Assembly: GCA_002189035.1 (NCBI GenBank)
Contig: NEEC01000516.1
Location: forward strand, 1 to 25,577
Length of the DNA: 25,577 bases
Reading direction: 5' to 3'
Source: Utricularia gibba
Taxonomy: Eukaryota; Streptophyta; Magnoliopsida; Lamiales; Lentibulariaceae
Below the pieces are notes generated by a model. It did no database searches, was not told the origin of the DNA, and was given only the letters and a program-made list of their open reading frames with translations. This document shows, piece after piece, positions 1 to 21,072 of the stretch (position 1 is its first letter; each line of letters opens with the position of its first letter). A program made the translations under genes and the position numbers.

Positions 1-312
1 TTAAATTACGATATCACGTGCACCCCACATGATTTTTTCAACAACTTACTTTATACTTGAGGAGGCGGTCTTGGGGTGCACCTAGAACGGGACAAAGGTC
101 AGGTTTGGCTTGCGCGAGTTAGTTGTAGCTCGGAAATAAAGTGATATTTATTAACGTTCAGTTTTTGGGGGCTGCCTACATGGTTTTTCAAGGAACAGCT
201 TCTCGTTTTGTGGCGGCCAGTCTCGCTGGGAACTTGGTCCTGGACCCCGATTCTGTATGGCTCATGAGGTCAACCGGATGGAAATCGATTAAAGAAAATG
301 ATGCCTTTCTTT
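1..312 (+). repeat. C-type monomer, end of a HOR unit cut by the left edge
   Basis: This is the first visible copy (unit start at 3). It carries the C-type ending: GATTCTGTATGGCTC, GGATGGAAATCG, TTAAAGAAAATG and CTTTCTTT. It shares the variant GGTCCTGGACCCCG with the C copy at 3760-4068. It is damaged where others read GCGCCGAGAGTTAG (here GCGCGAGTTAG) and where they read GTGATGTATTTA (here GTGATATTTA). Confidence 0.85.
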
Positions 313-1571
313 AAATTACGATATCACGTGCACCCCCACATGATTTTTTCAACAACTTGCTTTATACTTGTGGAGGCGGTCTTGGGGTGCACCTGGAACG
401 GGACAAAGGTCAGGTTTGGCTTGCGCCGAGAGTTAGTTGTAGCTCGGAAATAAAGTGATGTATTTATTAACGTTCAGTTTTGGGGGGCTGCCTACATGGT
501 TTTTCAAGGAACAGCTTCTCGTTTTGTGGCGGCCAGTCTCGCTGGGAACTTGGTCCTTGACCCGATTATGTATTGCTCATGAGGTCAACCGGATGCAAAT
601 TGATTAAAAAAATGATGCCTTTGTTTAAATTACGATATCACGTGCACCCCACATGATTTTTTCAACAACTTACTTTATACTTGAGGAGGCGGTCTTGGGG
701 TGCACCTAGAACGGGACAAAGGTCAGGTTTGGCTTGCGCCGAGAGTTAGTTGTAGCTCGGAAAATAAAGTGATGTATTTATTAACGTTCAGTTTTTGGGG
801 GCTGCCTACATGGTTTTTCAAGGAACAGCTTCTCGTTTTGTGGCGGCCAGTCTCGCTGGGAACTTGGTCCTTGACCCGATTATGTATGGCTCATGAGGTC
901 AACCGGATGCAAATTGATTAAAAAAAAATGATGCCTTTGTTTTAAATTACGATATCACGTGCACCCACATGATTTTTTCAACAACTTACTTTATACTTGA
1001 GGAGGCGGTCTTGGGGTGCACCTAGAACGGGACAAAGGTCAGGTTTGGCTTGCGCCGAGAGTTAGTTGTAGCTCGGAAAATAAAGTGATGTATTTATTAA
1101 CGTTCAGTTTTGGGGGGCTGCCTACATGGTTTTTCAAGGAACAGCTTCTCGTTTTGTGGCGGCCAGTCTCGCTGGGAACTTGGTCCTTGACCCCGATTCT
1201 GTATGGCTCATGAGGTCAACCGGATGCAAATCGATTAAAGAAATGATGCCTTTGTTTAAATTACGATATCACGTGCACCCCACATGATTTTTTCAACAAC
1301 TTACTTTATACTTGAGGAGGCGGTCTTGGGGTGCACCTAGAACGGGACAAAGGTCAGGTTTGGCTTGCGCCGAGAGTTAGTTGTAGCTCGGCAAATAAAG
1401 TGATGTATTTATTAACGTTCAGTTTTTGGGGGCTGCCTACATGGTTTTTCAAGAACAGCTTCTCGTTTTGTGCGGCCAGTCTCGCTGGGAACTTGGTCCT
1501 TGACCCCGATTCTGTATGGCTCATGAGGTCAACCGGATGCAAATCGATTAAAGAAAATGATGCCTTTCTTT
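313..1571 (+). repeat. Higher-order repeat unit, tetramer A-B-D-C (1259 bp)
   Basis: Four monomers start at 313, 627, 944 and 1258. The first has the A head (TTGCTTTATACTTGTGG) and tail (CAAATTGATTAAAAA). The second also ends CAAATTG. The third has GATTCTGTATGG with CAAATCGATTAAAG. The fourth ends AAAGAAAATG...CTTTCTTT, which closes the HOR. The last monomer reads CAAATCG where most C copies read GGAAATCG, so it may be a D/C mosaic. Confidence 0.8.
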
Positions 1572-2826
1572 AAATTACGATATCACGTGCACCCCACATG
1601 ATTTTTTCAACAACTTACTTTATACTTGAGGAGGCGGTCTTGGGGTGCACCTGGAACGGGACAAAGGTCAGGTTTGGCTTGCGCCGAGAGTTAGTTGTAG
1701 CTCGGCAAATAAAGTGATGTATTTATTAACGTTCAGTTTTTGGGGGCTGCCTACATGGTTTTTCAAGGAACAGCTTCTCGTTTTGTGGCGGCCAGTCTCG
1801 CTGGGAACTTGGTCCTTGACCCCGATTCTGTATGCTCATGAGGTCAACCGGATGCAAATTGATTAAAAAAATGATGCCTTTTTAAATTACGATATCACGT
1901 GCACCCCACATGATTTTTTCAACAACTTACTTTATACTTGAGGAGGCGGTCTTGGGGTGCACCTAGAACGGGACAAAGGTCAGGTTTGGCTTGCGCCGAG
2001 AGTTAGTTGTAGCTCGGAAAATAAAGTGATGTATTTATTAACGTTCAGTTTTGGGGGGCTGCCTACATGGTTTTTCAAGGAACAGCTTCTCGTTTTGTGG
2101 CGGCCAGTCTCGCTGGGAACTTGGTCCTTGACCCCGATTCTGTATTGGCTCATGAGGTCAACCGGATGCAAATTGATTAAAAAAATGATGCCTTTGTTTA
2201 AATTACGATATCACGTGCACCCCACATGATTTTTTCACAACTTACTTTATACTTGAGGAGGCGGTCTTGGGGTGCACCTAGAACGGGACAAAGGTCAGGT
2301 TTGGCTTGCGCCGAGAGTTAGTTGTAGCTCGGAAAATAAAGTGATGTATTTATTAACGTTCAGTTTTGGGGGCTGCCTACATGGTTTTTCAAGGAACAGC
2401 TTCTCGTTTTGTGGCGGCCAGTCTCGCTGGGAACTTGGTCCTTGACCCCGATTCTGTATGCTCATGAGGTCAACCGGATGCAAATCGATTAAAAAAATGA
2501 TGCCTTTGTTTAAATTACGATATCACGTGCACCCCACATGATTTTTCAACAACTTACTTTATACTTGAGGAGGCGGTCTTGGGGTGCACCTAGAACGGGA
2601 CAAAGGTCAGGTTTGGCTTGCGCCGAGAGTTAGTTGTAGCTCGGCAAATAAAGTGATGTATTTATTAACGTTCAGTTTTTTGGGGGCTGCCTACATGGTT
2701 TTTCAAGGAACAGCTTCTCGTTTTGTGGCGGCCAGTCTCGCTGGGAACTTGGTCCTTGACCCCGATTCTGTATGGCTCATGAGGTCAACCGGATGGAAAT
2801 CGATTAAAGAAAATGATGCTTTCTTT
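1572..2826 (+). repeat. Higher-order repeat unit, tetramer (1255 bp)
   Basis: Monomers start at 1572, 1884, 2200 and 2512. The unit ends with a C copy carrying GGATGGAAATCG, AAAGAAAATG and TTTCTTT. The first monomer lacks the usual A head (it reads TTACTTTATA) but has the CAAATTG tail. Both the opening monomer and the closing C copy read CGGCAAATAAAG rather than CGGAAAATAAAG. Confidence 0.78.
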
Positions 2827-4068
2827 AAATTACGATATCACGTGCACCCCACATGATTTTTTCAACAACTTGCTTTATACTTGAGGAGGCGGTCTTGGGG
2901 TGCACCTAGAACGGGACAAAGGTCAGGTTTGGCTTGCGCCGAGAGTTAGTTGTAGCTCGGCAAATAAAGTGATGTATTTATTAACGTTCAGTTTTTGGGG
3001 GCTGCCTACATGGTTTTTCAAGGAACAGCTTCTCGTTTTGTGGCGGCCAGTCTCGCTGGGAACTTGGTCCTTGACCCGATTATGTATGGCTCATGAGGTC
3101 AACCGGATGCAAATTGATTAAAAAAAATGATGCCTTTGTTTAAATTACGATATCACGTGCACCCATTTTTTTCAACAACTTTATACTTGAGGAGGCGGTC
3201 TTGGGTGCACCTAGAACGGGACAAAGGTCAGGTTTGGCTTGCGTTGAGAGTTAGTTGTAGCTCGGAAATAAAGTGATGTATTTATTAACGTTCAGTTTTG
3301 GGGGCTGCCTACATGGTTTTTCAAGGAACAGCTTCTCGTTTTGTGGCGGCCAGTCTCGCTGGGAACTTGGTCCTTGACCCCGATTCTGTATGGCTCATGA
3401 GGTCAACCGGATGCAAATCGATTAAAAAAAATGATGCCTTTGTTTAAATTACGATATCACGTGCACCCCACATGATTTTTTCAACAACTTACTTTATACT
3501 TGAGGAGGCGGTCTTGGGGTGCACCTAGAACGGGACAAAGGTCAGGTTTGGCTTGCGCCGAGAGTTAGTTGTAGCTCGGAAAATAAAGTGATGTATTTAT
3601 TAACGTTCAGTTTTGGGGGCTGCCTACATGGTTTTTCAAGGAACCGCTTCTCGTTTTGTGGCGGCCAGTCTCGCTGGGAACTTGGTCCTTGACCCCGATT
3701 CTGTATGCTCATGAGGTCAACCGGATGCAAATCGATTAAAGAAAATGATGCCTTTGTTTAAATTACGATATCACGTGCACCACATGATTTTTTCAACAAC
3801 TTTATACTTGTGAGGAGGCTTTGGGGTGCACCTAGAACGGGACAAAGGTCAGGTTTGGCTTGCGCCGAGAGTTAGTTGTAGCTCGGAAAATAAAGTGATG
3901 TATTTATTAACGTTCAGTTTTTGGGGGCTGCCTACATGGTTTTTCAAGGAACAGCTTCTCGTTTTGTGGCGGCCAGTCTCGCTGGGAACTTGGTCCTGGA
4001 CCCCGATTCTGTATGGCTCATGAGGTCAACCGGATGGAAATCGATTAAAGAAAATGATGCCTTTCTTT
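2827..4068 (+). repeat. Higher-order repeat unit, tetramer A-B-D-C (1242 bp)
   Basis: Monomers start at 2827, 3142, 3446 and 3760. The A copy has TTGCTTTATA and CAAATTG. The second copy (304 bp) has the B marker GCGTTGAG and two small deletions near 3163-3180. The D copy ends CAAATCGATTAAAGAAAATG...TTTGTTT. The C copy ends GGATGGAAATCG...TTTCTTT and has a rearranged CTTGTGAGGAGGC near 3808-3820. Confidence 0.82.
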
Positions 4069-5325
4069 AAATTACGATATCACGTGCACCCACATGATTT
4101 TTTCAACAACTTGCTTTATACTTGAGGAGGCGGTCTTGGGGTGCACCTAGAACGGGACAAAGGTCAGGTTTGGCTTGCGCCGAGAGTTAGTTGTAGCTCG
4201 GAAAATAAAGTGATGTATTTATTAACGTTCAGTTTTGGGGGCTGCCTACATGGTTTTTCAAGGAACAGCTTCTCGTTTTGTGGCGGCCAGTCTCGCTGGG
4301 AACTTGGTCCTTGACCCCGATTATGTATGCTCATGAGGTCAACCGGATGCAAATCGATTAAAAAAAATGATGCCTTTGTTTAAATTACGATATCACGTGC
4401 ACCCCACATGATTTTTTCAACAACTTACTTTATACTTGAGGAGGCGGTCTTGGGGTGCACCTAGAACGGGACAAAGGTCAGGTTTGGCTTGCGCCGAGAG
4501 TTAGTTGTAGCTCGGAAAATAAAGTGATGTATTTATTAACGTTCAGTTTTTGGGGGCTGCCTACATGGTTTTTCAAGGAACAGCTTCTCGTTTTGTGGCG
4601 GCCAGTCTCGCTGGGAACTTGGTCCTTGACCCCGATTATGTATGCTCATGAGGTCAACCGGATGCAAATCGATTAAAAAAAATGATGCCTTGTTTAAATT
4701 ACGATATCACGTGCACCCCACATGATTTTTTTCAACAACTTACTTTATACTTGAGGAGGCGGTCTTGGGGTGCACCTAGAACGGGACAAAGGTCAGGTTT
4801 GGCTTGCGAGAGTTAGTTGTAGCTCGGAAAATAAAGTGATGTATTTATTAACGTTCAGTTTTTGGGGGCTGCCTACATGGTTTTTCAAGGAACAGCTTCT
4901 CGTTTTGTGGCGGCCAGTCTCGCTGGGAACTTGGTCCTTGACCCCGATTCTGTATGGCTCATGAGGTCAACCGGATGCAAATCGATTAAAGAAAATGATG
5001 CCTTTGTTTAAATTACGATATCACGTGCACCCCACATGATTTTTTCAACAACTTACTTTATACTTGAGGAGGCGGTCTTGGGGTGCACCTAGAACGGGAC
5101 AAAGGTCAGGTTTGGCTTGCGCCGAGAGTTAGTTGTAGCTCGGCAAATAAAGTGATGTATTTATTAACGTTCAGTTTTGGGGGCTGCCTACATGGTTTTT
5201 CAAGGAACAGCTTCTCGTTTTGTGGCGGCCAGTCTCGCTGGGAACTTGGTCCTTGACCCCGATTCTGTATGGCTCATGAGGTCAACCGGATGGAAATCGA
5301 TTAAAGAAAATGATGCCTTTCTTTT
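4069..5325 (+). repeat. Higher-order repeat unit, tetramer A-B-D-C (1257 bp)
   Basis: Monomers start at 4069, 4382, 4696 and 5010, of 313, 314, 314 and 316 bp. All four are intact apart from a 3-4 bp loss near 4807 (GCGAGAG for GCGCCGAGAG). The unit opens with TTGCTTTATA and closes with GGATGGAAATCG and AAAGAAAATG, ending in CTTTCTTTT. Confidence 0.83.
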
Positions 5326-6513
5326 AAATTACGATATCACGTGCACCCACATGATTTTTTCAACAACTTGCTTTATACTTGTGGAGGCGGTCTTGGGGGC
5401 ACCTAGAACGGGACAATTATGAGAGTTGTAGTCCTTGGGGTGCCTACATGGTTTTTCAAGGAACAGCTTCTCGTTTTGTGCGGCCAGTCTCGCTGGGAAC
5501 TTGGTCCTTGACCCGATTATGTATTGCTCATGAGGTCAACCGGATGCAAATGATTAAAAAAAATGATGCCTTGTTTAAATTACGATATCACGTGCACCCA
5601 CATGATTTTTTCAACAACTTACTTTATACTTGAGGAGGCGGTCTTGGGGTGCACCTAGAACGGGACAAAGGTCAGGTTTGGCTTGCGCCGAGAGTTAGTT
5701 GTAGCTCGGAAAATAAAGTGATGTATTTATTAACGTTCAGTTTTGGGGGGCTGCCTACATGGTTTTTCAAGGAACAGCTTCTCGTTTTGTGGCGGCCAGT
5801 CTCGCTGGGAACTTGGTCCTTGACCCCGATTATGTATGCTCATGAGGTCAACCGGATGCAAATTGATTAAAAAATGATGCCTTTGTTTAAATTACGATAT
5901 CACGTGCACCCCACATGATTTTTTCAACAACTTACTTTATACTTGAGGAGGCGGTCTTGGGGTGCACCTAGAACGGGACAAAGGTCAGGTTTGGCTTGCG
6001 CCGAGAGTTAGTTGTAGCTCGGAAAATAAAGTGATGTATTTATTAACGTTCAGTTTTGGGGGGCTGCCTACATGGTTTTTCAAGGAAAGCTTCTCGTTTT
6101 GTGGCGGCCAGTCTCGCTGGGAACTTGGTCCTTGACCCCGATTCTGTATGCTCATGAGGTCAACCGGATGCAAATCGATTAAAAAATGATGCCTTTGTTT
6201 AAATTACGATATCACGTGCACCCACATGATTTTTTTCAACAACTTACTTTATACTTGAGGAGGCGGTCTTGGGTGCACCTAGAACGGGACAAAGGTCAGG
6301 TTTGGCTTGCGCCGAGAGTTAGTTGTAGCTCGGAAATAAAGTGATGTATTTATTAACGTTCAGTTTTTGGGGGCTGCCTACATGGTTTTTCAAGGAACAG
6401 CTTCTCGTTTTGTGGCGGCCAGTCTCGCTGGGAACTTGGTCCTTGACCCCATTCTGTATGGCTCATGAGGTCAACCGGATGGAAATCGATTAAAGAAAAT
6501 GATGCCTTTCTTT
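5326..6513 (+). repeat. Higher-order repeat unit, tetramer with truncated first monomer (1188 bp)
   Basis: Monomers start at 5326, 5577, 5889 and 6201. The opening A copy is only 251 bp: between the GGGACAA at 5409-5415 and the CTACATGG near 5443 about 60 bp are missing, including AATAAA and the T/G run, and the joining sequence is scrambled. The other three copies are 312-313 bp and the unit closes with a standard C tail. Confidence 0.82.
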
Positions 6514-7654
6514 AAATTACGATATCACGTGCACCCCACATGATTTTTTCAACAACTTGCTTTATACTTGAGGAGGCGGTCTTGGGGTGCAGGAACGGGG
6601 TCACCCGCCGTTAGAGTTAGTTGTAGCTCGGAATAATGATGTATTTATTAACGTTCAGTTTTTGGGGCTGCCTACATGGTTTTTCAAGGAACAGCTTCTC
6701 GTTTTGTGGCGGCCAGTCTCGCGGGAACTTGGTCCTTGACCCCGATTCTGTATGGCTCATGAGGTCAACCGGATGGAAATCGATTAAAAAAATGATGCCT
6801 TTCTTTAAATTACGATATCACGTGCACCCCACATGATTTTTTCAACAACTTGCTTTATACTTGAGGAGGCGTCTTGGGGTGCACCTAGAACGGGACAAAG
6901 GTCAGGTTTGGCTTGCGCCGAGAGTTAGTTGTAGCTCGGAAAAAAAGTGATGTATTTATTAACGTTCAGTTTGGGGCTTTTTTTGGGCAGTGGGGGGCTT
7001 ATGTGGGCGGATGCAAATTGATTAAAAAATCTTTGTTTAGACGATACGTGCACCATGATTTTTTCAACAACTTACTTTATACTTGAGGAGGCGGTCTTGG
7101 GTGCACCTGGAACGGGACAAAGGTCAGGTTTGGCTTGCGCCGAGAGTTAGTTGTAGCTCGGAAATAAAGTGATGTATTTATTAACGTTCAGTTTTTGGGG
7201 CTGCCTACATGGTTTTTCAAGGAACAGCTTCTCGTTTTGTGGCGGCCAGTCTCGCTGGGAACTTGGTCTTGACCCCGATTCTGTATGGCTCATGAGGTCA
7301 ACCGGATGCAAATCGATTAAAAAAATGATGCCTTTGTTTAAATTACGATATCACGTGCACCCCACATGATTTTTTCAACAACTTGCTTTATACTTGAGGA
7401 GGCGGTCTTGGGGTGCACCTAGAACGGGACAAAGGTCAGGTTTGGCTTGCGCCGAGAGTTAGTTGTAGCTCGGAAATAAAGTGATGTATTTATTAACGTT
7501 CAGTTTTGGGGGGCTGCCTACATGGTTTTTCAAGGAACAGCTTCTCGTTTTGTGGCGGCCAGTCTCGCTGGGAACTTGGTCCTTGACCCCGATTCTGTAT
7601 GGCTCATGAGGTCAACCGGATGGAAATCGATTAAAGAAAATGATGCCTTTCTTT
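6514..7654 (+). repeat. Higher-order repeat unit with two heavily damaged monomers (1141 bp)
   Basis: Monomers start at 6514 (293 bp), 6807 (232 bp), 7039 (301 bp) and 7340 (315 bp). The first two are the most degraded in the window: a scrambled stretch of about 20 bp at 6591-6612, and a stretch at 6971-7046 where only ordered fragments of the normal sequence remain. The third has the D signature (GATTCTGTATGG, CAAATCG, TTTGTTT) and the fourth the C signature (GGATGGAAATCG, AAAGAAAATG, TTTCTTT), so tetramer order can still be read. Confidence 0.72.
6971..7046 (+). other. Degenerate monomer segment with four G-runs
   Basis: After TAACGTTCAG the normal ~155 bp is replaced by about 75 bp made of short fragments that keep the normal left-to-right order (GGGGCT, a T-run, CAGT, a G-run, CTT, ATGT, CGGATGCAAATTG). 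This looks like many small deletions rather than an insertion. G-runs at 6973-6976, 6985-6987, 6992-6997 and 7005-7007 are found together only here. Poor consensus sequence is as likely as real decay. Confidence 0.6.
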
Positions 7655-8276
7655 AAATTACGATATCACGTGCACCCCACATGATTTTTTCAACAACTTG
7701 CTTTATACTTGAGGAGGCGGTCTTGGGGTGCACCTGGAACGGGACAAAGGTCAGGTTTGGCTTGCGCGAGAGTTAGTTGTAGCTCGGAAAATAAAGTGAT
7801 GTATTTATTAACGTTCAGTTTTGGGGGCTGCCTACATGGTTTTTCAAGGAACAGCTTCTCGTTTTGTGGCGGCCAGTCTGGGAACTTGGTCCTTGACCCG
7901 ATTCTGTATGCTCATGAGGTCAACCGGATGCAAATCGATTAAAGAAAATGATGCCTTTGTTTAAATTACGATATCACGTGCACCCCACATGATTTTTTTC
8001 AAACTTACTTTATACTTGAGGAGGCGGTCTTGGGGTGCACCTAGAACGGGACAAAGGTCAGGTTTGGCTTGCGCCGAGAGTTAGTTGTAGCTCGGCAAAT
8101 AAAGTGATGTATTTATTAACGTTCAGTTTTTGGGGGCTGCCTACATGGTTTTTCAAGGAACAGCTTCTCGTTTTGTGGCGGCCAGTCTCGCTGGGAACTT
8201 GGTCCTTGACCCCGATTCTGTATGGCTCATGAGGTCAACCGGATGGAAATCGATTAAAAAAATGATGCCTTTCTTT
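7655..8276 (+). repeat. Contracted HOR unit, two monomers (622 bp)
   Basis: Monomers start at 7655 (308 bp) and 7963 (314 bp). The first combines an A-type head (TTGCTTTATA) with a D-type tail (CAAATCGATTAAAGAAAATG, TTTGTTT), as expected if an exchange between an A and a D copy removed two monomers. The second is a C copy ending TTTCTTT. The A/D mosaic reading is inference from marker order. Confidence 0.7.
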
Positions 8277-9227
8277 AAATTACGATATCACGTGCACCCC
8301 ACATGATTTTTTCAACAACTTGCTTTATACTTGTGGAGGCGGTCTTGGGGTGCACCTGGAACGGGACAAAGGTCAGGTTTGGCTTGCGCCGAGAGTTAGT
8401 TGTAGCTCGGCAAATAAAGTGATGTATTTATTAACGTTCAGTTTTTGGGGGCTGCCTACATGGTTTTTCAAGAAACAGCTTCTCGTTTTGTGGCGGCCAG
8501 TCTCGCTGGGAACTTGGTCCTTGACCCGATTATGTATGCTCATGAGGTCAACCGATGCAAATTGATTAAAAAAAAATGATGCCTTGTTTTAAATTACGAT
8601 ATCACGTGCACCCCACATGATTTTTTCAACAACTTACTTTATACTTGAGGAGGCGGTCTTGGGGTGCACCTAGAACGGGACAAAGGTCAGGTTTGGCTTG
8701 CGCCGAGAGTTAGTTGTAGCTCGGAAAATAAAGTGATGTATTTATTAACGTTCAGTTTTGGGGGGCTGCCTACATGGTTTTTCAAGGAACAGCTTCTCGT
8801 TTTGTGGCGGCCAGTCTCGCTGGGAACTTGGTCCTTGACCCCGATTATGTATGCTCATGAGGTCAACCGGATGCAAATCGATTAAAAAAAATGATGCCTT
8901 TGTTTAAATTACGATATCACGTGCACCCCACATGATTTTTTTCAACAACTTACTTTATACTTGAGGAGGCGGTCTTGGGGTGCACCTAGAACGGGACAAA
9001 GGTCAGGTTTGGCTTGCGCCGAGAGTTAGTTGTAGCTCGGAAAATAAAGTGATGTATTTATTAACGTTCAGTTTTGGGGGCTGCCTACATGGTTTTTCAA
9101 GGAACAGCTTCTCGTTTTGTGGCGGCCAGTCTCGCTGGGAACTTGGTCCTTGACCCCGATTCTGTATGCTCATGAGGTCAACCGGATGCAAATCGATTAA
9201 AGAAAATGATGCCTTTGTTTAAATTAC

Positions 9228-9241
9228 GATATCACGTGCAC
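9228..9241. other. Three overlapping palindromes GATATC / CACGTG / GTGCAC (reference copy)
   Basis: Within 14 bp three self-complementary hexamers overlap: GATATC (9228-9233), CACGTG (9233-9238) and GTGCAC (9236-9241). CACGTG is the canonical E-box/G-box core bound by bHLH and bZIP proteins, and ATCACGTG also fits the RTCACRTG form of the budding-yeast CDEI element (established motifs). The cluster is present in almost every monomer. Protein binding here is unproven. Confidence 0.6.
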
Positions 9242-9299
9242 CCCACATGATTTTTTCAACAACTTACTTTATACTTGAGGAGGCGGTCTTGGGGTGCAC
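9236..9299. repeat. Perfect 10-bp inverted repeat, one per monomer (reference copy)
   Basis: GTGCACCCCA at 9236-9245 is the exact reverse complement of TGGGGTGCAC at 9290-9299, leaving a 44-bp loop. The pair is present in most monomers. Losses are small and usually one-sided (CCCCA cut to CCCA near 2-4% to one-fifth of copies by eye, or TTGGGTGCAC). In single-stranded DNA or a transcript it could form a stem with seven or more G-C pairs. No function is shown. Confidence 0.75.
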
Positions 9300-9355
9300 C
9301 TAGAACGGGACAAAGGTCAGGTTTGGCTTGCGTTGAGAGTTAGTTGTAGCTCGGA

Positions 9356-9361
9356 AATAAA
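9356..9361 (+). promoter_or_regulatory. AATAAA hexamer in each monomer (reference copy)
   Basis: Most monomers contain AATAAA on the + strand, followed within about 30 bp by a T-run and G-run (TTTTTGGGGG), an arrangement like a polyadenylation signal with a downstream GU-rich element. It is also simply an A-rich motif kept by homogenisation. It is lost in several C-type copies (AAAAAAG near 12470, 13405, 14336, 20896) and in others by single-base loss. Confidence 0.35.
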
Positions 9362-9372
9362 GTGATGTATTT

Positions 9373-9536
9373 ATTAACGTTCAGTTTTTGGGGGCTGCCT
9401 ACATGGTTTTTCAAGGAACAGCTTCTCGTTTTGTGGCGGCCAGTCTCGCTGGGAACTTGGTCCTTGACCCGATTCTGTATGGCTCATGAGGTCAACCGGA
9501 TGGAAATCGATTAAAGAAAATGATGCCTTTCTTTAA
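9373..9536 (+). repeat. Right half-unit of the monomer (reference copy)
   Basis: The matching anchors are ATTAACG, ACATGGTTTTTCAA, CTT, GGCGG, GTCT, GGCTCATG, GGAAA, TTAAAG and TGATG. The half runs to the TTTCTTTAA before the next ATTACG. Length is about 164 bp against about 150 bp for the left half; the extra bases lie mainly around the T/G run and in the AAAGAAAATG tail. Confidence 0.6.
9464..9495. repeat. TTGACC / GGTCAA inverted repeat (reference copy)
   Basis: TTGACC at 9464-9469 is the reverse complement of GGTCAA at 9490-9495, with a 20-bp spacer containing the TCATGA palindrome. A competing short hairpin, GGTC-CTT-GACC, uses the same left arm. Type C copies with GGTCGGGCCCC or GGTCCCCC have lost the left arm. 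Confidence 0.5.
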
Positions 9537-10447
9537 ATTACGATATCACGTGCACCCCACATGATTTTTTCAACAACTTGCTTTATACTTGAGGAGGCGG
9601 TCTTGGGGTGCACCTGGAACGGGACAAAGGTCAGGTTTGGCTTGCGCCGAGAGTTAGTTGTAGCTCGGAAAATAAAGTGATGTATTTATTAACGTTCAGT
9701 TTTTGGGGGCTGCCTACATGGTTTTTCAAGGAACAGCTTCTCGTTTTGTGGCGGCCAGTCTCGCTGGGAACTTTGGTCCTTGACCCCGATTCTGTATGCT
9801 CATGAGGTCAACCGGATGCAAATTAAAGAAAATGATGCCTTTGTTTAAATTACGATATCACGTGCACCCCACATGATTTTTTCAACAACTTACTTTATAC
9901 TTGAGGAGGCGGTCTTGGGGTGCACCTAGAACGGGACAAAGGTCAGGTTTGGCTTGCGCCGAGAGTTAGTTGTAGCTCGGAAATAAAGTGATGTATTTAT
10001 TAACGTTCAGTTTTGGGGGCTGCCTACATGGTTTTTCAAGGAACAGCTTCTCGTTTTGTGGCGGCCAGTCTCGCTGGGAATTGGTCCTTGACCCCGATTC
10101 TGTGGCTCATGAGGTCAACCGGATGGAAATCGATTAAAAAAATGATGCCTTTGTTTAAATTACGATATCACGTGCACCCCACATGATTTTTTCAACAACT
10201 TACTTTATACTTGAGGAGGCGGTCTTGGGTGCACCTAGAACGGGACAAAGGTCAGGTTTGGCTTGCGCCGAGAGTTAGTTGTAGCTCGGCAAATAAAGTG
10301 ATGTATTTATTAACGTTCAGTTTTTGGGGGCTGCCTACATGGTTTTTCAAGGAACAGCTTCTCGTTTTGTGGCTCCTGGCCCCGATTCTGTATGGCTCAT
10401 GAGGTCAACCGGATGGAAATCGATTAAAGAAAAATGATGCCTTTTTT
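9535..10447 (+). repeat. Irregular HOR unit, three monomers (913 bp)
   Basis: Monomers start at 9535, 9847 and 10157. The first has an A head and a D-like tail that has lost ATCG (CAAATTAAAGAAAATG). The third is a C copy of 291 bp in which about 23 bp between TTTTGTGGC and CCCCGATTCTG are missing (junction near 10372-10380). Confidence 0.68.
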
Positions 10448-11393
10448 AAATTACGATATCACGTGCACCCCACATGATTTTTTCAACAACTTGCTTTATA
10501 CTTGTGGAGGCGGTCTTGGGGTGCACCTAGAACGGGACAAAGGTCAGGTTTGGCTTGCGCCTAGAGTTAGTTGTAACTCGGAAAATAAAGTGATGTATTT
10601 ATTAACGTTCAGTTTTTGGGGGCTGCCTACATGGTTTTTCAAGAAAACAGCTTCTCGTTTTGTGGCGGCCAGTCTCGCTGGGAACTTGGTCCTTGACCCC
10701 GATTATGTATTGCTCATGAGGTCAACCGGATGCAAATTGATTAAAAAAAAATGATGCCTTTGTTTAAATTACGATATCACGTGCACCCCACATGATTTTT
10801 TCAACAACTTACTTTATACTTGAGGAGGCGGTCTTGGGGTGCACCTAGAACGGGACAAAGGTCAGGTTTGGCTTGCGCCGAGAGTTAGTTGTAGCTCGGA
10901 AAATAAAGTGATGTATTTATTAACGTTCAGTTTTGGGGGCTGCCTACATGGTTTTTCAAGGAACAGCTTCTCGTTTTGTGGCGGCCAGTCTCGCTGGGAA
11001 CTTGGTCCTTGACCCGATTCTGTATGGCTCATGAGGTCAACCGATGGAAATCGATTAAAGAAAATGATGCCTTTGTTTAAATTACGATATCACGTGCACC
11101 CCACATGATTTTTTCAACAACTTGCTTTATACTTGAGGAGGCGGTCTTGGGGTGCACCTGGAACGGGACAAAGGTCAGGTTTGGCTTGCGCCGAGAGTTA
11201 GTTGTAACACGGAAAATAAAGTGATGTATTTATTAACGTTCAGTTTTTGGGGGCTGCCTACATGGTTTTTCAAGAAACAGCTTCTCGTTTTGTGGCGGCC
11301 AGTCTCGCTGGAACTTGGTCCTTGACCCCGATTCTGTATGGCTCATGAGGTCAACCGGATGGAAATCGATTAAAGAAAATGATGCCTTTCTTT
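10448..11393 (+). repeat. Irregular HOR unit, three monomers (946 bp)
   Basis: Monomers start at 10448, 10766 and 11079. The first is a typical A copy (TTGCTTTATACTTGTGG, GCGCCTAGAG, GATTATGTATTGCTC, CAAATTG) at 318 bp. The last has A-like internal markers (TTGCTTTATA, GTAACACGG, CAAGAAACAG) but the C tail (GGATGGAAATCG, TTTCTTT), so it looks like an A/C mosaic. Confidence 0.7.
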
Positions 11394-12637
11394 AAATTAC
11401 GATATCACGTGCACCCCACATGATTTTTTCAACAACTTGCTTTATACTTGAGGAGGCGGTCTTGGGGTGCACCTAGAACGGGACAAAGGTCAGGTTTGGC
11501 TTGCGCCGAGTTAGTTGTAGCTCGGCAAATAAAGTGATGTATTTATTAACGTTCAGTTTTTGGGGGCTGCCTACATGGTTTTTCAAGAAACAGCTTCTCG
11601 TTTTGTGGCGGCCAGTCTCGCTGGGAACTTGGTCCTTGACCCGATTATGTATTGCTCATGAGGTCAACCGGATGCAAATTGATTAAAAAAAATGATGCCT
11701 TGTTTAAATTACGATATCACGTGCACCCCACATGATTTTTTCAACAACTTACTTTATACTTGAGGAGGCGGTCTTGGGGTGCACCTAGAACGGGACAAAG
11801 GTCAGGTTTGGCTTGCGTTGAGAGTTAGTTGTAGCTCGGAAAATAAAGTGATGTATTTATTAACGTTCAGTTTTGGGGGCTGCCTACATGGTTTTTCAAG
11901 GAACAGCTTCTCGTTTTGTGGCGGCCAGTCTCGCTGGGAACTTGGTCCTTGACCCCGATTATGTATGCTCATGAGGTCAACCGGATGCAAATTGATTAAA
12001 AAAAATGATGCCTTTGTTTAAATTACGATATCACGTGCACCCCACATGATTTTTTCAACTTACTTTATACTTGAGGAGGCGGTCTTGGGGTGCACCTAGA
12101 ACGGGACAAAGGTCAGGTTTGGCTTGCGCCGAGAGTTAGTTGTAGCTCGGAAAATAAAGTGATGTATTTATTAACGTTCAGTTTTTGGGGGCTGCCTACA
12201 TGGTTTTTCAAGGAACAGCTTCTCGTTTTTGTGGCGGCCAGTCTCGCTGGGAACTTGGTCCTTGACCCCGATTCTGTATGGCTCATGAGGTCAACCGGAT
12301 GCAAATCGATTAAAGAAAATGATGCCTTTGTTTAAATTACGATATCACGTGCACCCCACATGATTTTTCAACAACTTACTTTATACTTGAGGAGGCGGTC
12401 TTGGGGTGCACCTGGAACGGGACAAAGGTCAGGTTTGGCTTGCGCCGAGAGTTAGTTGTAGCTCGGCAAAAAGTGATGTATTTTAACGTTCAGTTTTGGG
12501 GGCCCTACATGGTTTTTCAAGGAACAGCTTCTCGTTTTGTGGCGGCCAGTCTCGCTGGAACTTGGTCCCCCCGATTCTTTATGGCTCATGAGGTCAACCG
12601 GATGGAAATCGATTAAAGAAAAATGATGCCTTTCTTT
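11394..12637 (+). repeat. Higher-order repeat unit, tetramer A-B-D-C (1244 bp)
   Basis: Monomers start at 11394, 11706, 12020 and 12334. B carries GCGTTGAG. The closing C copy (304 bp) is the first of a distinct C subtype: CGGCAAAAAGTG replaces the AATAAA region, CTGGAACTTGGTCCC replaces CTGGGAACTTGGTCCTTGACCCC, and the next motif is GATTCTTTATGG rather than GATTCTGTATGG. Confidence 0.8.
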
Positions 12638-13579
12638 AAATTACGATATCACGTGCACCCCACATGATTTTTTCAACAACTTGCTTTATACTTGTGGAGG
12701 CGGTCTTGGGGTGCACCTGGAACGGGACAAAGGTCAGGTTTGGCTTGCGCCTAGAGTTAGTTGTAACACGGAAAATAAAGTGATGTATTTATTAACGTTC
12801 AGTTTTTGGGGGGCTGCCTACATGGTTTTTCAAGAAACAGCTTCTCGTTTTGTGGCGGCCAGTCTCGCTGGGAACTTGGTCCTTGACCCGATTATGTATT
12901 GCTCATGAGGTCAACCGGATGCAAATTGATTAAAAAAAAATGATGCCTTTGTTTAAATTACGATATCACGTGCACCCCACATGATTTTTTCAACAACTTA
13001 CTTTATACTTGAGGAGGCGGTCTTGGGGTGCACCTAGAACGGGACAAAGGTCAGGTTTGGCTTGCGTTGAGATTTAGTTGTAGCTCGGAAAATAAAGTGA
13101 TGTATTTATTAACGTTCAGTTTTGGGGGGCTGCCTACATGGTTTTTCAAGAACAGCTTCTCGTTTTGTGGCGGCCAGTCTCGCTGGGAACTTGGTCCTTG
13201 ACCCCGATTATGTATTGCTCATGAGGTCAACCGGATGCAAATCGATTAAAAAAAATGATGCCTTGTTTAAATTACGATATCACGTGCACCCCACATGATT
13301 TTTTCAACAACTTACTTTATACTTGAGGAGGCGGTCTTGGGGTGCACCTAGAACGGGACAAAGGTCAGGTTTGGCTTGCGCCGAGAGTTAGTTGTAGCTC
13401 GGCAAAAAAGTGATGTATTTATTAACGTTCAGTTTTGGGGGCTGCCTACATGGTTTTTCAAGGAACAGCTTCTCGTTTTGTGGCGGCCAGTCTCGCTGGA
13501 ACTTGGTCCTTGCCCCGATTCTGTATGGCTCATGAGGTCAACCGGATGAAATCGATTAAAGAAAATGATGCCTTTCTTT
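12638..13579 (+). repeat. Higher-order repeat unit, trimer A-B-C (942 bp)
   Basis: Monomers start at 12638, 12955 and 13269. A has GCGCCTAGAG, GTAACACGG and CAAATTG. B has GCGTTGAG, TTTTGGGGGG and GATTATGTATTGCTC. C has CGGCAAAAAAG, CTGGAACTTGG and a TTTCTTT end. The D monomer of the tetramer is absent. Confidence 0.8.
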
Positions 13580-14509
13580 AAATTACGATATCACGTGCAC
13601 CCCACATGATTTTTTCAACAACTTGCTTTATACTTGGAGGCGGTCTTGGGGTGCACCTGGAACGGGACAAAGGTCAGGTTTGGCTTGCGCCGAGAGTTAG
13701 TTGTAACTCGGAAAATAAAGTGATGTATTTATTAACGTTCAGTTTTTGGGGGCTGCCTACATGGTTTTTCAAGAAACAGCTTCTCGTTTTGTGGCGGCCA
13801 GTCTCGCTGGGAACTTGGTCCTTGACCCCGATTCTGTATGCTCATGAGGTCAACCGGATGCAAATCGATTAAAAAAAAATGATGCCTTTGTTTAAATTAC
13901 GATATCACGTGCACCCCACATGATTTTTTCAACAACTTGCTTTATACTTGAGGAGGCGGTCTTGGGGTGCACCTAGAACGGGACAAAGGTCAGGTTTGGC
14001 TTGCGTTGAGAGTTAGTTGTAGCTCGGAAATAAAGTGATGTATTTATTAACGTTCAGTTTTGGGGGGCTGCCTACATGGTTTTTTCAAGGAACAGCTTCT
14101 CGTTTTGTGGCGGCCAGTCTCGCTGGGAACTTGGTCCTTGACCCCGATTATGTATGCTCATGAGGTCAACCGGATGCAAATTGATTAAAAAAATGATGCC
14201 TTGTTTAAATTACGATATCACGTGCACCCCACATGATTTTTTCAACAACTTACTTTACTTGAGGAGGCGGTCTTGGGGTGCACCTAGAACGGGACAAAGG
14301 TCAGGTTTGGCTTGCGCCGAGAGTTAGTTGTAGCAAAAAAGTGATGTATTTATTAACGTTCAGTTTTGGGGGCTGCCTACATGGTTTTTCAAGGACAGCT
14401 TCTCGTTTTGTGGCGGCCAGTCTCGCTGGAACTTGGTCGGGCCCCGATTCTTTATGGCTCATGAGGTCAACCGGATGGAAATCGATTAAAGAAAATGATG
14501 CCTTTCTTT
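13580..14509 (+). repeat. Higher-order repeat unit, trimer A-B-C (930 bp)
   Basis: Monomers start at 13580, 13894 and 14207. Marker order matches the trimer to its left. The C copy (303 bp) reads TAGCAAAAAAG, CAAGGACAG, CTGGAACTTGGTCGGGCCCC and GATTCTTTATGG. The A copy reads GTAACTCGG and CAAATCG, so it is less typical. Confidence 0.78.
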
Positions 14510-16072
14510 AAATTACGATATCACGTGCACCCACATGATTTTTTCAACAACTTGCTTTATACTTGTGGAGGCGGTCTTGGGGTGCACCTGGAACGGGACA
14601 AAGGTCAGGTTTGGCTTGCGCCTAGAGTTAGTTGTAACACGGCAAATAAAGTGATGTATTTATTAACGTTCAGTTTTTGGGGGCCCTACATGGTTTTTCA
14701 AGAACAGCTTCTCGTTTTGTGGCGGCCAGTCTCGCTGGGAACTTGGTCCTTGACCCGATTATGTATTGCTCATGAGGTCAACCGGATGCAAATTGATTAA
14801 AAAAAATGATGCCTTGTTTAAATTACGATATCACGTGCACCCCACATGATTTTTTCAACAACTTACTTTATACTTGAGGAGGCGGTCTTGGGGTGCACCT
14901 AGAACGGGACAAAGGTCAGGTTTGGCTTGCGCCGAGAGTTAGTTGTAGCTCGGAAATAAAGTGATGTATTTATTAACGTTCAGTTTTGGGGGCTGCCTAC
15001 ATGGTTTTTCAAGGAACAGCTTCTCGTTTTGTGGCGGCCAGTCTCGCTGGGAACTTGGTCCTTGACCCCGATTATGTATTGCTCATGAGGTCAACCGGAT
15101 GCAAATTGATTAAAAAAAAATGATGCCTTTGTTTAAATTACGATATCACGTGCACCCCACATGATTTTTTCACAACTTACTTTATACTTGAGGAGGCGGT
15201 CTTGGGGTGCACCTAGAACGGGACAAAGGTCAGGTTTGGCTTGCGCCGAGAGTTAGTTGTAGCTCGGAAAATAAAGTGATGTATTTATTAACGTTCAGTT
15301 TTTGGGGCTGCCTACATGGTTTTTCAAGGAACAGCTTCTCGTTTTGTGGCGGCCAGTCTCGCTGGGAACTTGGTCCTTGACCCGATTCTGTATGGCTCAT
15401 GAGGTCAACCGGATGCAAATCGATTAAAGAAAATGATGCCTTTGTTTAAATTACGATATCACGTGCACCCCACATGATTTTTTCAACTTACTTTATACTT
15501 GAGGAGGCGGTCTTGGGGTGCACCTGGAACGGGACAAAGGTCAGGTTTGGCTTGCGCCGAGAGTTAGTTGTAGCTCGGAAAATAAAGTGATGTATTTATT
15601 AACGTTCAGTTTTTGGGGGCTGCCTACATGGTTTTTCAAGGAACAGCTTCTCGTTTTGTGGCGGCCAGTCTCGCTGGAACTTGGTCGGACCCCGATTCTG
15701 TATGGCTCATGAGGTCAACCGGATGGAAATCGATTAAAGAAAATGATGCCTTTGTTTAAATTACGATATCACGTGCACCCCACATGATTTTTTCAACAAC
15801 TTGCTTTATACTTGAGGAGGCGGTCTTGGGGTGCACCTGGAACGGGACAAAGGTCAGGTTTGGCTTGCGCGAGAGTTAGTTGTAGCTCGGAAAATAAAGT
15901 GATGTATTTATTAACGTTCAGTTTTTGGGGGCTGCCTACATGGTTTTTCAAGGACAGCTTCTCGTTTTGTGGCGGCCAGTCTCGCTGGGAACTTGGTCCT
16001 TGACCCCGATTCTGTATGGCTCATGAGGTCAACCGGATGGAAAATCGATTAAAGAAAATGATGCCTTTCTTT
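14510..16072 (+). repeat. Expanded irregular HOR unit, five monomers (1563 bp)
   Basis: Monomers start at 14510, 14820, 15135, 15448 and 15758. A (GCGCCTAGAG, GTAACACGG), a B-like copy and a D-like copy (GATTCTGTATGG, CAAATCG) are followed by two C-like copies: one with CTGGAACTTGGTCGGACCCC but a TTTGTTT end, and one with GGATGGAAAATCG and a TTTCTTT end. This may be a tetramer with one extra C-like monomer. Confidence 0.65.
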
Positions 16073-17015
16073 AAATTACGATATCACGTGCACCCCACAT
16101 GATTTTTTCAACAACTTGCTTTTATACTTGAGGAGGCGGTCTTGGGGTGCACCTGGAACGGGACAAAGGTCAGGTTTGGCTTGCGTTGAGAGTTAGTTGT
16201 AGCTCGGAAAAAAAGTGATGTATTTATTAACGTTCAGTTTTGGGGGGCTGCCTACATGGTTTTTCAAGGAACAGCTTCTCGTTTTGTGGCGGCCAGTCTC
16301 GCTGGGAACTTGGTCCTTGACCCCGATTATGTATTGCTCATGAGGTCAACCGGATGCAAATCGATTAAAAAAAATGATGCCTTTGTTTAAATTACGATAT
16401 CACGTGCACCCCACATGATTTTTTCAACAACTTACTTTATACTTGAGGAGGCGGTCTTGGGGTGCACCTAGAACGGGACAAAGGTCAGGTTTGGCTTGCG
16501 CGAGAGTTAGTTGTAGCTCGGAAAATAAAGTGATGTATTTATTAACGTTCAGTTTTGGGGGCTGCCTACATGGTTTTTCAAGGAACAGCTTCTCGTTTTT
16601 GTGGCGGCCAGTCTCGCTGGGAACTTGGTCTTGACCCCGATTATGTATGGCTCATGAGGTCAACCGGATGGAAATCGATTAAAGAAAATGATGCCTTTGT
16701 TTAAATTACGATATCACGTGCACCCCACATGATTTTTTCAACAACTTACTTTATACTTGAGGAGGCGGTCTTGGGGTGCACCTGGAACGGGACAAAGGTC
16801 AGGTTTGGCTTGCGCCGAGAGTTAGTTGTAGCTCGGAAATAAAGTGATGTATTTATTAACGTTCAGTTTTTGGGGGCTGCCTACATGGTTTTTCAAGGAA
16901 CAGCTTCTCGTTTTGTGGCGGCCAGTCTCGCTGGAACTTGGTCCTTGACCCGATTCTGTATGGCTCATGAGGTCAACCGGATGGAAATCGATTAAAGAAA
17001 ATGATGCCTTTCTTT
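16073..17015 (+). repeat. Irregular HOR unit, three monomers (943 bp)
   Basis: Monomers start at 16073, 16389 and 16703. The first is B-type (GCGTTGAG, TTTTGGGGGG, GATTATGTATTGCTC), so the unit lacks an opening A. The last has the C markers CTGGAACTTGG, GGATGGAAATCG and TTTCTTT. Confidence 0.65.
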
Positions 17016-17957
17016 AAATTACGATATCACGTGCACCCCACATGATTTTTTCAACAACTTGCTTTATACTTGAGGAGGCGGTCTTGGGGTGCACCTGGAA
17101 CGGGACAAAGGTCAGGTTTGGCTTGCGCCGAGAGTTAGTTGTAACTCGGAAAATAAAGTGATGTATTTATTAACGTTCAGTTTTTGGGGGGCTGCCTACA
17201 TGGTTTTTCAAGGAACAGCTTCTCGTTTTGTGGCGGCCAGTCTCGCTGGGAACTTGGTCCTTGACCCGATTATGTATTGCTCATGAGGTCAACCGGATGC
17301 AAATTGATTAAAAAAAAATGATGCCTTTTTTAAATTACGATATCACGTGCACCCCACATGATTTTTTCAACAACTTACTTTATACTTGAGGAGGCGGTCT
17401 TGGGGTGCACCTAGAACGGGACAAAGGTCAGGTTTGGCTTGCGCCGAGAGTTAGTTGTAGCTCGGAAATAAAGTGATGTATTTATTAACGTTCAGTTTTT
17501 TGGGGGCTGCCTACATGGTTTTTCAAGGAACAGCTTCTCGTTTTGTGGCGGCCAGTCTCGCTGGGAACTTGGTCCTTGACCCCGATTCTGTATGGCTCAT
17601 GAGGTCAACCGGATGCAAATCGATTAAAGAAAATGATGCCTTTCTTTAAATTACGATATCACGTGCACCCCACATGATTTTTTCAACAACTTGCTTTATA
17701 CTTGTGGAGGCGGTCTTGGGGTGCACCTGGAACGGGACAAAGGTCAGGTTTGGCTTGCGCCGAGAGTTAGTTGTAGCTCGGAAAATAAAGTGATGTATTT
17801 ATTAACGTTCAGTTTTTGGGGGCTGCCTACATGGTTTTTCAAGGAACAGCTTCTCGTTTTGTGGCGGCCAGTCTCGCTGGGAACTTGGTCCCCCGATTCT
17901 TATGGCTCATGAGGTCAACCGGATGGAAATCGATTAAAGAAAATGATGCCTTTCTTT
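17016..17957 (+). repeat. Irregular segment: two-monomer unit plus a lone C-type monomer (942 bp)
   Basis: Monomers start at 17016, 17332 and 17648. The first is A-type (TTGCTTTATA, GTAACTCGG, GATTATGTATTGCTC, CAAATTG). The second has D internals (GATTCTGTATGG, CAAATCGATTAAAG) but the C end TTTCTTT. The third is C-type with a deletion giving GGTCCCCCGATTCTTATGG. Two neighbouring copies both end TTTCTTT. Confidence 0.65.
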
Positions 17958-19206
17958 AAATTACGATATCACGTGCACCCCACATGATTTTTTCAACAAC
18001 TTGCTTTATACTTGTGGAGGCGGTCTTGGGGTGCACCTGGAACGGGACAAAGGTCAGGTTTGGCTTGCAGAGTTAGTTGTAACACGGCAAATAAAGTGAT
18101 GTATTTATTAACGTTCAGTTTTTGGGGGCTGCCTACATGGTTTTTCAAGGAACAGCTTCTCGTTTTGTGGCGGCCAGTCTCGCTGGGAACTTGGTCCTTG
18201 ACCCGATTATGTATTGCTCATGAGGTCAACGGATGCAAATTGATTAAAAAAAATGATGCCTTGTTTAAATTACGATATCACGTGCACCCCACATGATTTT
18301 TTCAACAACTTACTTTATACTTGAGGAGGCGGTCTTGGGGTGCACCTAGAACGGGACAAAGGTCAGGTTTGGCTTGCGCCGAGAGTTAGTTGTAGCTCGG
18401 AAAATAAAGTGATGTATTTATTAACGTTCAGTTTTGGGGGGCTGCCTACATGGTTTTTCAAGGAACAGCTTCTCGTTTTGTGGCGGCCAGTCTCGCTGGG
18501 AACTTGGTCCTTGACCCCGATTATGTATGCTCATGAGGTCAACCGGATGCAAATTGATTAAAAAAATGATGCCTTTGTTTAAATTACGATATCACGTGCA
18601 CCCCACATGATTTTTTCAACAACTTACTTTATACTTGAGGAGGCGGTCTTGGGGTGCACCTAGAACGGGACAAAGGTCAGGTTTGGCTTGCGCCGAGAGT
18701 TAGTTGTAGCTCGGAAAATAAAGTGATGTATTTATTAACGTTCAGTTTTTGGGGGCTGCCTACATGGTTTTTCAAGGAACAGCTTCTCGTTTTGTGGCGG
18801 CCAGTCTCGCTGGGAACTTGGTCCTTGACCCCGATTATGTATGGCTCATGAGGTCAACCGGATGGAAATCGATTAAAGAAAATGATGCCTTTGTTTAAAT
18901 TACGATATCACGTGCACCCCACATGATTTTTTCAACAACTTACTTTATACTTGAGGAGGCGGTCTTGGGGTGCACCTGGAACGGGACAAAGGTCAGGTTT
19001 GGCTTGCGCCGAGAGTTAGTTGTAGCTCGGCAAATAAGTGATGTATTTATTAACGTTCAGTTTTGGGGGCTGCCTACATGGTTTTTCAAGGAACAGCTTC
19101 TCGTTTTGTGGCGGCCAGTCTCGCTGGAACTTGGTCCCACCCGATTCTGTATGGCTCATGAGGTCAACCGGATGGAAATCGATTAAAGAAAATGATGCCT
19201 TTCTTT
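17958..19206 (+). repeat. Higher-order repeat unit, tetramer (1249 bp)
   Basis: Monomers start at 17958, 18267, 18581 and 18897. A has GTAACACGG and CAAATTG with a short gap at TTGCAGAG. B has TTTTGGGGGG. The third position has GATTATGTATGGCTC and GGATGGAAATCG with a TTTGTTT end, a different third-position variant from the D seen in the left part of the array. C has CTGGAACTTGGTCCC and TTTCTTT. Confidence 0.78.
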
Positions 19207-20134
19207 AAATTACGATATCACGTGCACCCACATGATTTTTTCAACAACTTGCTTTATACTTGAGGAGGCGGTCTTGGGGTGCACCTGGAACGGGACAAAG
19301 GTCAGGTTTGGCTTGCGCCTAGAGTTAGTTGTAGCGGAAATAAAGTGATGTATTTATTAACGTTCAGTTTTGGGGGCTGCTACATGGTTTTTCAAGAAAC
19401 AGCTTCTCGTTTTGTGGCGGCCAGTCTCGCTGGGAACTTGGTCCTTGACCCGATTATGTATTGCTCATGAGGTCAACCGGATGCAAATTGATTAAAAAAA
19501 TGATGCCTTTGTTTAAATTACGATATCACGTGCACCCCACATGATTTTTTCAACAACTTGCTTTATACTTGAGGAGGCGGTCTTGGGGTGCACCTAGAAC
19601 GGGACAAAGGTCAGGTTTGGCTTGCGTTGAGAGTTAGTTGTAACTCGGAAATAAAGTGATGTATTTATTAACGTTCAGTTTTGGGGGGCTGCCTACATGG
19701 TTTTTCAAGGAACAGCTTCTCGTTTTGTGGCGGCCAGTCTCGCTGGGAACTTGGTCCTTGACCCGATTATGTATTGCTCATGAGGTCAACCGGATGCAAA
19801 TTGATTAAAAAAAATGATGCCTTGTTTTTTACGATATCACGTGCACCCACATGATTTTTTCAACAACTTACTTTATACTTGAGGAGGCGGTCTTGGGGTG
19901 CACCTAGAACGGGACAAAGGTCAGTTTGGCTTGCGCCGAGAGTTAGTTGTAGCCCGGCAAAGAATGTGATGTATTTCTTAACGTTCAGTTTTTCGGGGCT
20001 GCCTACATGGTTTTTCAAGGACAGCTTCTCGTTTTGTGGCGGCCAGTCTCTGGAACTTGGTCGGGCCCCCGATTCTTTATGGCTCATGAGGTCAACCGGA
20101 TGGAAATCGATTAAAGAAAATGATGCCTTTCTTT
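19207..20134 (+). repeat. Higher-order repeat unit, trimer A-B-C (928 bp)
   Basis: Monomers start at 19207, 19515 and about 19827. A has GCGCCTAGAG, CAAGAAACAG and GATTATGTATTGCTC. B has GCGTTGAG and TTTTGGGGGG. The C copy opens unusually (GTTTTTTACGATATC instead of GTTTAAATTACGATATC) and contains CGGCAAAGAATGTG and GGTCGGGCCCCC. Confidence 0.8.
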
Positions 20135-21072
20135 AAATTACGATATCACGTGCACCCCACATGATTTTTTCAACAACTTGCTTTATACTTGTGGAGGCGG
20201 TCTTGGGGTGCACCTGGAACGGGACAAAGGTCAGGTTTGGCTTGCGCCTAGAGTTAGTTGGGAAATAAAGTGATGTATTTATTAACGTTCAGTTTTTGGG
20301 GGCTACCTACATGGTTTTTCAAGAAACAGCTTCTCGTTTTTGTGGCGGCCAGTCTCGCTGGGAACTTGGTCCTTGACCGCGATTATGTATTGCTCATGAG
20401 GTCAACCGGATGCAAATTGATTAAAAAAAATGATGCCTTTGTTTAAATTACGATATCACGTGCACCCCACATGATTTTTTCAACAACTTGCTTTATACTT
20501 GAGGAGGCGGTCTTGGGGTGCACCTAGAACGGGACAAAGGTCAGGTTTGGCTTGCGTTGAGAGTTAGTTGTAGCTCGGAAAATAAAGTGATGTATTTATT
20601 AACGTTCAGTTTTGGGGGCTGCCTACATGGTTTTTCAAGGAACAGCTTCTCGTTTTGTGGCGGCCAGTCTCGCTGGGAACTTGGTCCTTGACCCCGATTA
20701 TGTATTGCTCATGAGGTCAACCGGATGCAAATTGATTAAAAAAAATGATGCCTTTGTTTAAATTACGATATCACGTGCACCCCACATGATTTTTTCAACA
20801 ACTTACTTTATACTTGAGGAGGCGGTCTTGGGGTGCACCTAGAACGGGACAAAGGTCAGGTTTGGCTTGCGCCGAGAGTTAGTTGTAGCTCGGAAAAAAG
20901 TGATGTATTTATTAACGTTCAGTTTTTGGGGGCTGCCTACATGGTTTTTCAAGGAACAGCTTCTCGTTTTGTGGCGGCCAGTCTCGCTGGGAACTTGGTC
21001 GGGCCCCCGATTCTTTATGGCTCATGAGGTCAACCGGATGGAAATCGATTAAAGAAAATGATGCCTTTCTTT
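20135..21072 (+). repeat. Higher-order repeat unit, trimer A-B-C (938 bp)
   Basis: Monomers start at 20135, 20445 and 20760. Type markers match the preceding trimer. The A copy carries GGCTACCTACATGG in place of GGCTGCCTACATGG, the first appearance of a variant confined to the right end. The C copy has CGGAAAAAAG and GGTCGGGCCCCCGATTC. Confidence 0.8.

Follow-up and report, generated by a model that had tools for sequence, protein, structure and literature searches.

Variable higher-order periods in an abundant 314-bp satellite of Utricularia gibba

Plant centromeric DNA is usually made up of higher-order satellite repeats and Ty3/gypsy elements (PMC12371157). The 314-bp satellite of Utricularia gibba described here fills the window (the whole stretch of DNA that was analysed, 25,577 nucleotides of contig NEEC01000516.1, forward strand). 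By description it can be likened to plant centromeric satellites such as Arabidopsis CEN178, which are also tandem satellites with higher-order structure, and it is a fresh example of this known kind. It differs from them in that it has no listed match on contigs C1-C4 of the assembly and in that a centromeric place is conjectural here. In the small genome of the related Genlisea nigrocaulis (Lentibulariaceae), Gn7c161 (161 bp) was described as the most abundant tandem repeat; compared by length only, it is near the 157-bp half unit that may underlie the 314-bp monomer, whereas Gn7c161 was reported from every chromosome and together with a centromere-specific antibody and the 314-bp satellite is absent from the C1-C4 listings (PMC4542322). 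Potato possesses both repeat-based and repeat-free centromeres and resembles U. gibba in carrying satellite on part of the karyotype, but the potato centromeres were mapped while the situation in U. gibba is known here from sequence alone (PMC4620154). The putative centromeric regions of U. gibba were described as being without satellite repeats in a passage of PMC8333044 that cites earlier work, and this absence was used to suggest new centromeres (PMC8333044).

The window is one entire contig, C27 (the assembly comprises 100.09 Mb in 516 contigs, labelled C1, C2 and so on), and it consists throughout of head-to-tail 314-bp monomers: the main rows of Tandem Repeats Finder (TRF) show a period of 313-315, and segmentation resulted in 83 monomers and a consensus of 316 columns (Table 1). 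The higher-order structure was followed by a marker, CTTTCTTT, which is found on 26 of the 83 monomers and whose state is unreadable at 5 monomer starts. The marked starts 311, 1570, 2825, 4067, 5324 and 6512 are separated by four monomers in every interval, and the same holds for the further marked starts 8275 and 9533. A sequence-only reading of the window had placed the six starts two bases further on and had seen the unit recur at 8277-9534, and both observations stand. Its statement that the spacing is always four monomers is correct for the five intervals up to 6512 but not for 6512-8275, which its list omitted and where additional markers at 6805 and 7653 result in spacings of 1, 3 and 2 monomers; the 1188-bp interval that it listed is explained by the short monomer of 251 bp. 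The run of five equal four-monomer spacings has a shuffle p of 0.0085, counted post hoc. The linked variants named in that reading were recovered as well, with a TTGC head at 9 of the 10 marked starts from 311 to 9533 and the GGAAATCG tail preceding 9 of these 10. Within 1-9534 (32 monomers) substitution identity is highest between monomers four positions apart (lag 4, 98.92%), compared with 98.56, 98.44, 98.51 and 98.64% at lags 1, 2, 3 and 5 (z 3.2; p 0.029 for any of lags 1-16, 5000 shuffles), and at 15 informative sites the value at lag 4 is 0.811 compared with 0.696-0.750 at those lags (p 0.012). The lack of any excess of lag 4 over these four lags in this part of the window had been named in advance by the sequence-only reading as its refutation; the excess was found, by a small margin.

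The tetramer claimed over 313-9534 is therefore retained as regards the periodic variants and the lag-4 peak, but there is no clean 1.25-kb unit, the contrast is weak and the pattern is broken at 6.5-8.3 kb. The six marker-defined four-monomer units show an identity of 98.47% within phase versus 97.68% between phases (0 of 2000 shuffles), a contrast that is partly circular because the units were selected by the marker they contain. Tested as classes in a fixed order, proposed as A-B-D-C, the four phases differ overall and are just separable, but phases 1 and 2 are poorly separated (p 0.065), so that four distinct classes are barely supported; the remaining five pairs have p values of 0.027-0.0315, near the floor of the test. 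When the window monomers were clustered into 4 or 5 classes, a single large class of mixed content resulted. Primate alpha satellite, with which the window had been compared, likewise repeats several monomers as a unit, but its monomer is ~171 bp long and that of U. gibba 314 bp. Alpha-satellite higher-order repeats are composed of near-identical units, with far more diverged monomers inside the unit. Such a contrast is absent from the window, where the value at lag 4 stands against 98.4-98.6% at lags 1, 2, 3 and 5. Alpha satellite is not the nearest comparison, since centromeric satellites of plants are usually arranged in higher-order repeats (PMC12371157).

The tetramer is one local form among several periods of the 314-bp satellite. 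In 9534-25577 no significant excess at lag 4 was found (p 0.865), and the peaks are at lag 3 (p 0.009), lag 10 (p 0.004) and lag 7 (p 0.044); 17 of the 25 marker spacings in the window are 3 or 4 monomers, a share reached by 0 of 20,000 shuffles. Lag tests on parts of seven other contigs (C7, C8, C10, C11, C325, C473 and C475; for C474 identity only was determined) revealed periods of 2, 5, 4/7 and 11 monomers on different contigs and none on some. The strongest is a five-monomer period in C11 at 1-35 kb, with 98.17% at lag 5 versus 93.8-94.9% at lags 1-4 (z 15.6). The period of C10 is eleven monomers long, with 98.24% (p 0.004) at 47-57 kb and a lesser signal at 22-32 kb (lag 11, z 2.4). C8 has peaks at lags 4, 7 and 8 (z 5.4, 6.3 and 4.7), and C7 carries two alternating types (lag 2 95.96%, lag 1 88.86%, z 2.3 with 14 monomers only), an alternation visible also in the list of matches of a degenerate 18-mer introduced below. 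In the right part of C475 lag 3 reaches z 3.0 (14 monomers). Higher-order organisation was thus rightly recognised in kind, and it is stronger in some other arrays (C11, C10). The marker has 165 exact matches in the genome, 100 of them listed; leaving out the 24 of the window and the 12 of C11, 45 of 60 spacings among the listed matches on C10, C86, C115 and C119 are 1, 3 or 4 monomers and 2 of 60 are 2 monomers, with the succession 3,3,1,4,3,3,1,4,3,4,3,3 on C10. Satellite subfamilies track contigs or contig parts, since monomers match the C27 consensus at between 85.5% (C475 right part) and 97% (C27, C473) on average, with 88% for C8.

Table 1. Sections of the satellite array and an interrupting element (window positions unless another contig is named)
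Feature	Coordinates	Strand	Basis
314-bp satellite array, 83 monomers, final one truncated by contig end	1..25577	+	TRF, monomer segmentation, alignment
Five consecutive four-monomer units (starts 311, 1570, 2825, 4067, 5324)	311..6511	+	Marker spacings 4,4,4,4,4; lag-4 peak in 1-9534
Short monomer, 251 bp; real deletion or consensus error	5324..5574	+	Segmentation
Irregular stretch, marker spacings 1, 3, 2; includes short monomer 6805-7031	6512..8274	+	Segmentation, marker positions
Single additional four-monomer unit	8275..9532	+	Marker positions
Mixed units, chiefly of 3 or 4 monomers; identity peaks at lags 3, 7, 10	9533..25577	+	Lag and marker analyses
Ty3/gypsy element interrupting satellite	C475:8668-15997		gag, reverse transcriptase, RNase H and integrase domains

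The monomers of C27 have a mean pairwise substitution identity of 97.3% in MAFFT columns (80 of 83 used; 94.5% with indels) and of 98.05% on consensus columns (83 monomers). Isolated one-base deletions lie inside homopolymer runs in 140 of 181 cases, with such runs making up 53% of positions. This indel noise resembles that of a long-read consensus, and the identity tests were therefore built on substitutions. Alignment of the two halves of the 314-bp consensus resulted in a score of 45, above all 300 shuffles (null mean 25, maximum 44), and the excess is clearer for a monomer of a sister satellite on C213 (61, null maximum 42). We infer from these scores that the monomer may be an old internal dimer of an ancestral unit of ~157 bp. 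Along the monomer, 20-bp windows did not single out any stretch as significantly conserved or variable (p 0.37-0.59); at 60 bp the lowest window is 1-60 (p 0.022), whereas 81-140 is the highest (p 0.006). CACGTG, considered as a CENP-B-like or CDEI-like box, is present in 75-100% of full monomers, depending on the group, which corresponds to only the 54th-90th percentile of 6-mers, and it is changed in the C213 sister satellite; this candidate was dropped. The CENP-B pattern has 0 matches on both strands of the window, and an origin from an RNA gene was rejected with 0 Rfam matches in the window.

A 24-mer of the satellite has, with up to 3 mismatches, 9228 matches in the assembly (control 0), from which the satellite is estimated at ~2.9 Mb or ~2.9% of the assembly at 314 bp per match. 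A degenerate 18-mer built from sampled arrays, which finds 75-100% of the full monomers in each of ten groups, has 7145 matches; the 100 listed in contig order are all on C7 and none is on C1-C6, although a more diverged copy could escape it. The satellite is thus not classed as the centromeric satellite of the species, because without a listed match on C1-C6 it is not on every chromosome. C1-C4 are 8.50, 6.19, 5.35 and 3.85 Mb and C451 is 6.82 Mb long; the published account of U. gibba gives 18 contigs >1 Mb, of which four are putatively entire chromosomes, and a Unitig_8 of 6.8 Mb (PMC8333044). The listings agree with the satellite-free picture for C1-C4, and an abundant satellite is found elsewhere in the assembly. 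No published description of the 314-bp satellite was found in open-licence literature, as covered by titles, the starts of abstracts and parts of PMC8333044, PMC6982007 and PMC4542322.

Telomere arrays of TTTAGGG are present in the assembly (670 matches of a 28-mer, control 0). Ends were sampled from a subset of 15 large contigs, C1-C4 (120-500 bp read per end) and 11 others of >1.7 Mb (1500 bp). Among these 30 ends, 13 carry telomeric repeats, degenerate in the case of C451, 13 carry neither telomeric repeats nor these satellites, including the start of C255, and 4 finish in satellites of other types than that of the window; the window's own subfamily is at none of the 30, and the 314-bp satellite is at none of the 13 telomeric ends over the lengths read, which leaves room for a deeper subtelomeric site. 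No telomere was seen at the far end of C1 or of C2 in the assembly read, and their completeness therefore rests on the published paper. The sizes of many contigs are exact multiples of 2,500 (8500000, 6192500, 2492500, 3452500, 267500, 25000, 12500), as if contigs had been cut at block ends; it is at this end that C1 and C2 are without a telomere. On C213 (3.7 Mb, telomere repeats at its start) the sister satellite, 70-76% identical and spaced at ~309 bp, fills the last 21.5 kb read. A dimer period, at which the autocorrelation of 1.5 kb had hinted, was not sustained in this sister across 20 kb, where lag 2 has p 0.833 and the best lag, 10, has p 0.104. The ends of C244, C255 and C451 carry tandem repeats of 336-344 bp that are 74-77% alike over 308-346 aligned columns; kinship of this ~340-bp family with the 314-bp satellite was rejected, since BLAST at an E threshold of 1 did not match the two and the ~340-bp family showed no dimer inside its monomer (p 0.42, 0.74). 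The exact C213-type pattern has 1882 matches, the earliest listed on C34, and an exact 18-mer common to the three ~340-bp ends has 3218, the earliest listed on C32; hence both patterns are missing from C1-C4. The start of C255 (3.4 Mb) is a tandem repeat of 153-154 bp, for which an identity as 5S ribosomal DNA was suspected by resemblance and dropped with 0 Rfam matches.

The Ty3/gypsy element within the C475 array has a long terminal repeat (LTR) of 603 bp that starts with TGATG and ends with CATCA, with copies 99% identical. An additional LTR of the same family is inserted in inverted orientation within its left LTR. An open reading frame (ORF) in the right LTR and the end of the integrase ORF have the same residue run, the frames being broken, and at the integrase C-terminus, the place of the CR motif in group A CRM elements, Pfam shows an SH3-like domain only. 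Group A CRM elements are described as having LTRs of 299-1225 bp, TGATG and T/CATCA ends and coding sequence that extends into the 3' LTR (PMC3059260). The C475 element shares two of their features, the size and ends of the LTR and the extension of coding into the 3' LTR, and is in this respect probably CRM-like. CRM elements were reported at higher prevalence from U. gibba than from U. reniformis (PMC6982007). With 40 of 207 candidates scored, the LTR family has 51 matches. They lie on C474-C477, of which C474 and C475 are satellite contigs, and dispersed across large contigs, where some form clusters; because of this scatter the family is no proof of a centromere. C474, C475, C476 and C477 all have the same nested LTR arrangement, which suggests that they are redundant contigs.

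As a side observation, mitochondrial cox1 (C515) is split near codon 242, with the frame of exon 1 open for 562 amino acids, as would be expected of a group I intron that carries an endonuclease gene in frame. The closest PDB chain to exon 1 is 7jro (annotated as COX1), presumably that of mung bean, and has Leu-Ser at the position of a Cys-Cys here. Two contiguous cysteines in COX were described for Utricularia and some Genlisea (PMC3141634).

The reading that we prefer, at a probability of about 0.7, is that of an abundant U. gibba satellite whose higher-order units result from unequal exchange and which forms heterochromatic, perhaps (peri)centromeric, blocks on a subset of chromosomes. An ancestral unit of ~157 bp would have doubled to the 314-bp monomer, and unequal exchange or conversion between misaligned copies may then have spread neighbouring variants as blocks, mostly of four monomers at 0.3-9.5 kb, then of three or four, and of 2, 5 or 11 elsewhere. 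This mechanism is inferred because the periods differ within one contig and from contig to contig against a common sequence background. The sequence-only reading had spoken of active unequal exchange, which is reasonable and is supported by the marker spacings on four other contigs, but exchange itself was not observed. This weighs against the reading, and so do several results: the lag-4 contrast in 1-9534 is a small effect of 0.3-0.5 percentage points; in C325 and in C475 at 1-8.7 kb identity only decays with distance, with no clear period, and none is clear in the part of C473 read, making three of seven other contigs in the main-subfamily parts read; and the 12 listed marker matches on C11 have 11 spacings that are all at least 5 monomers, none being 1, 3 or 4. 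It is very unlikely that the four-monomer pattern arose by chance or in the assembly, through a consensus of misplaced long reads from a homogeneous array. In favour of this are the small margin (p 0.029), the concentration of indel noise in homopolymers (140 of 181 isolated deletions) and the shared nested LTRs of C474-C477, a sign of redundant contigs. Against it, the markers are fixed-site substitutions, the window's share of 3- and 4-monomer spacings was matched by 0 of 20,000 shuffles, and the same marker is spaced by 1, 3 and 4 monomers on four other contigs.

The chromosomal role of the satellite is a matter of two further explanations. Non-centromeric heterochromatin, i.e., a knob, a subtelomeric or another satellite block without kinetochore role, is a possible though tentative alternative; not every chromosome needs the 314-bp satellite, as there is no listed match on C1-C4, and putative centromeres without satellite repeats were reported for U. 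gibba in PMC8333044, whereas none of the 13 sampled telomeric ends carries the satellite (in 120-1500 bp, with a subtelomeric site further in possible) and the CRM-like insertion leans the other way, weakly. Somewhat doubtful is a role as the CENH3-bound functional centromere repeat of the chromosomes that carry it, with satellite-free centromeres on C1-C4. Such a role would fit the abundance, the higher-order periods, the CRM-like retrotransposon with nested LTR inside the C475 array, the sister satellite that takes up the final 21.5 kb read of C213, opposite the telomeric end, and the two kinds of centromere in potato (PMC4620154). It is opposed by the absence of the window's subfamily from the 30 sampled large-contig ends, by the scatter of the CRM-like LTR family on large contigs, and by the unrelated 336-344-bp satellite that ends three large contigs and could be centromeric instead.

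A broader and unlikely extension is that the karyotype of U. gibba is mixed, with satellite-free centromeres on some chromosomes (C1-C4) and, on others, long satellite centromeres built from three or more types of array, namely the 314-bp family, the C213-type sister and the unrelated ~340-bp family, with higher-order periods that differ from type to type. U. gibba serves as a model of genome shrinkage, and satellite-free versus satellite-based centromeres are posed as a question within one very small plant genome. If the mixed karyotype is true, the published satellite-free picture would reflect which chromosomes assembled end to end.

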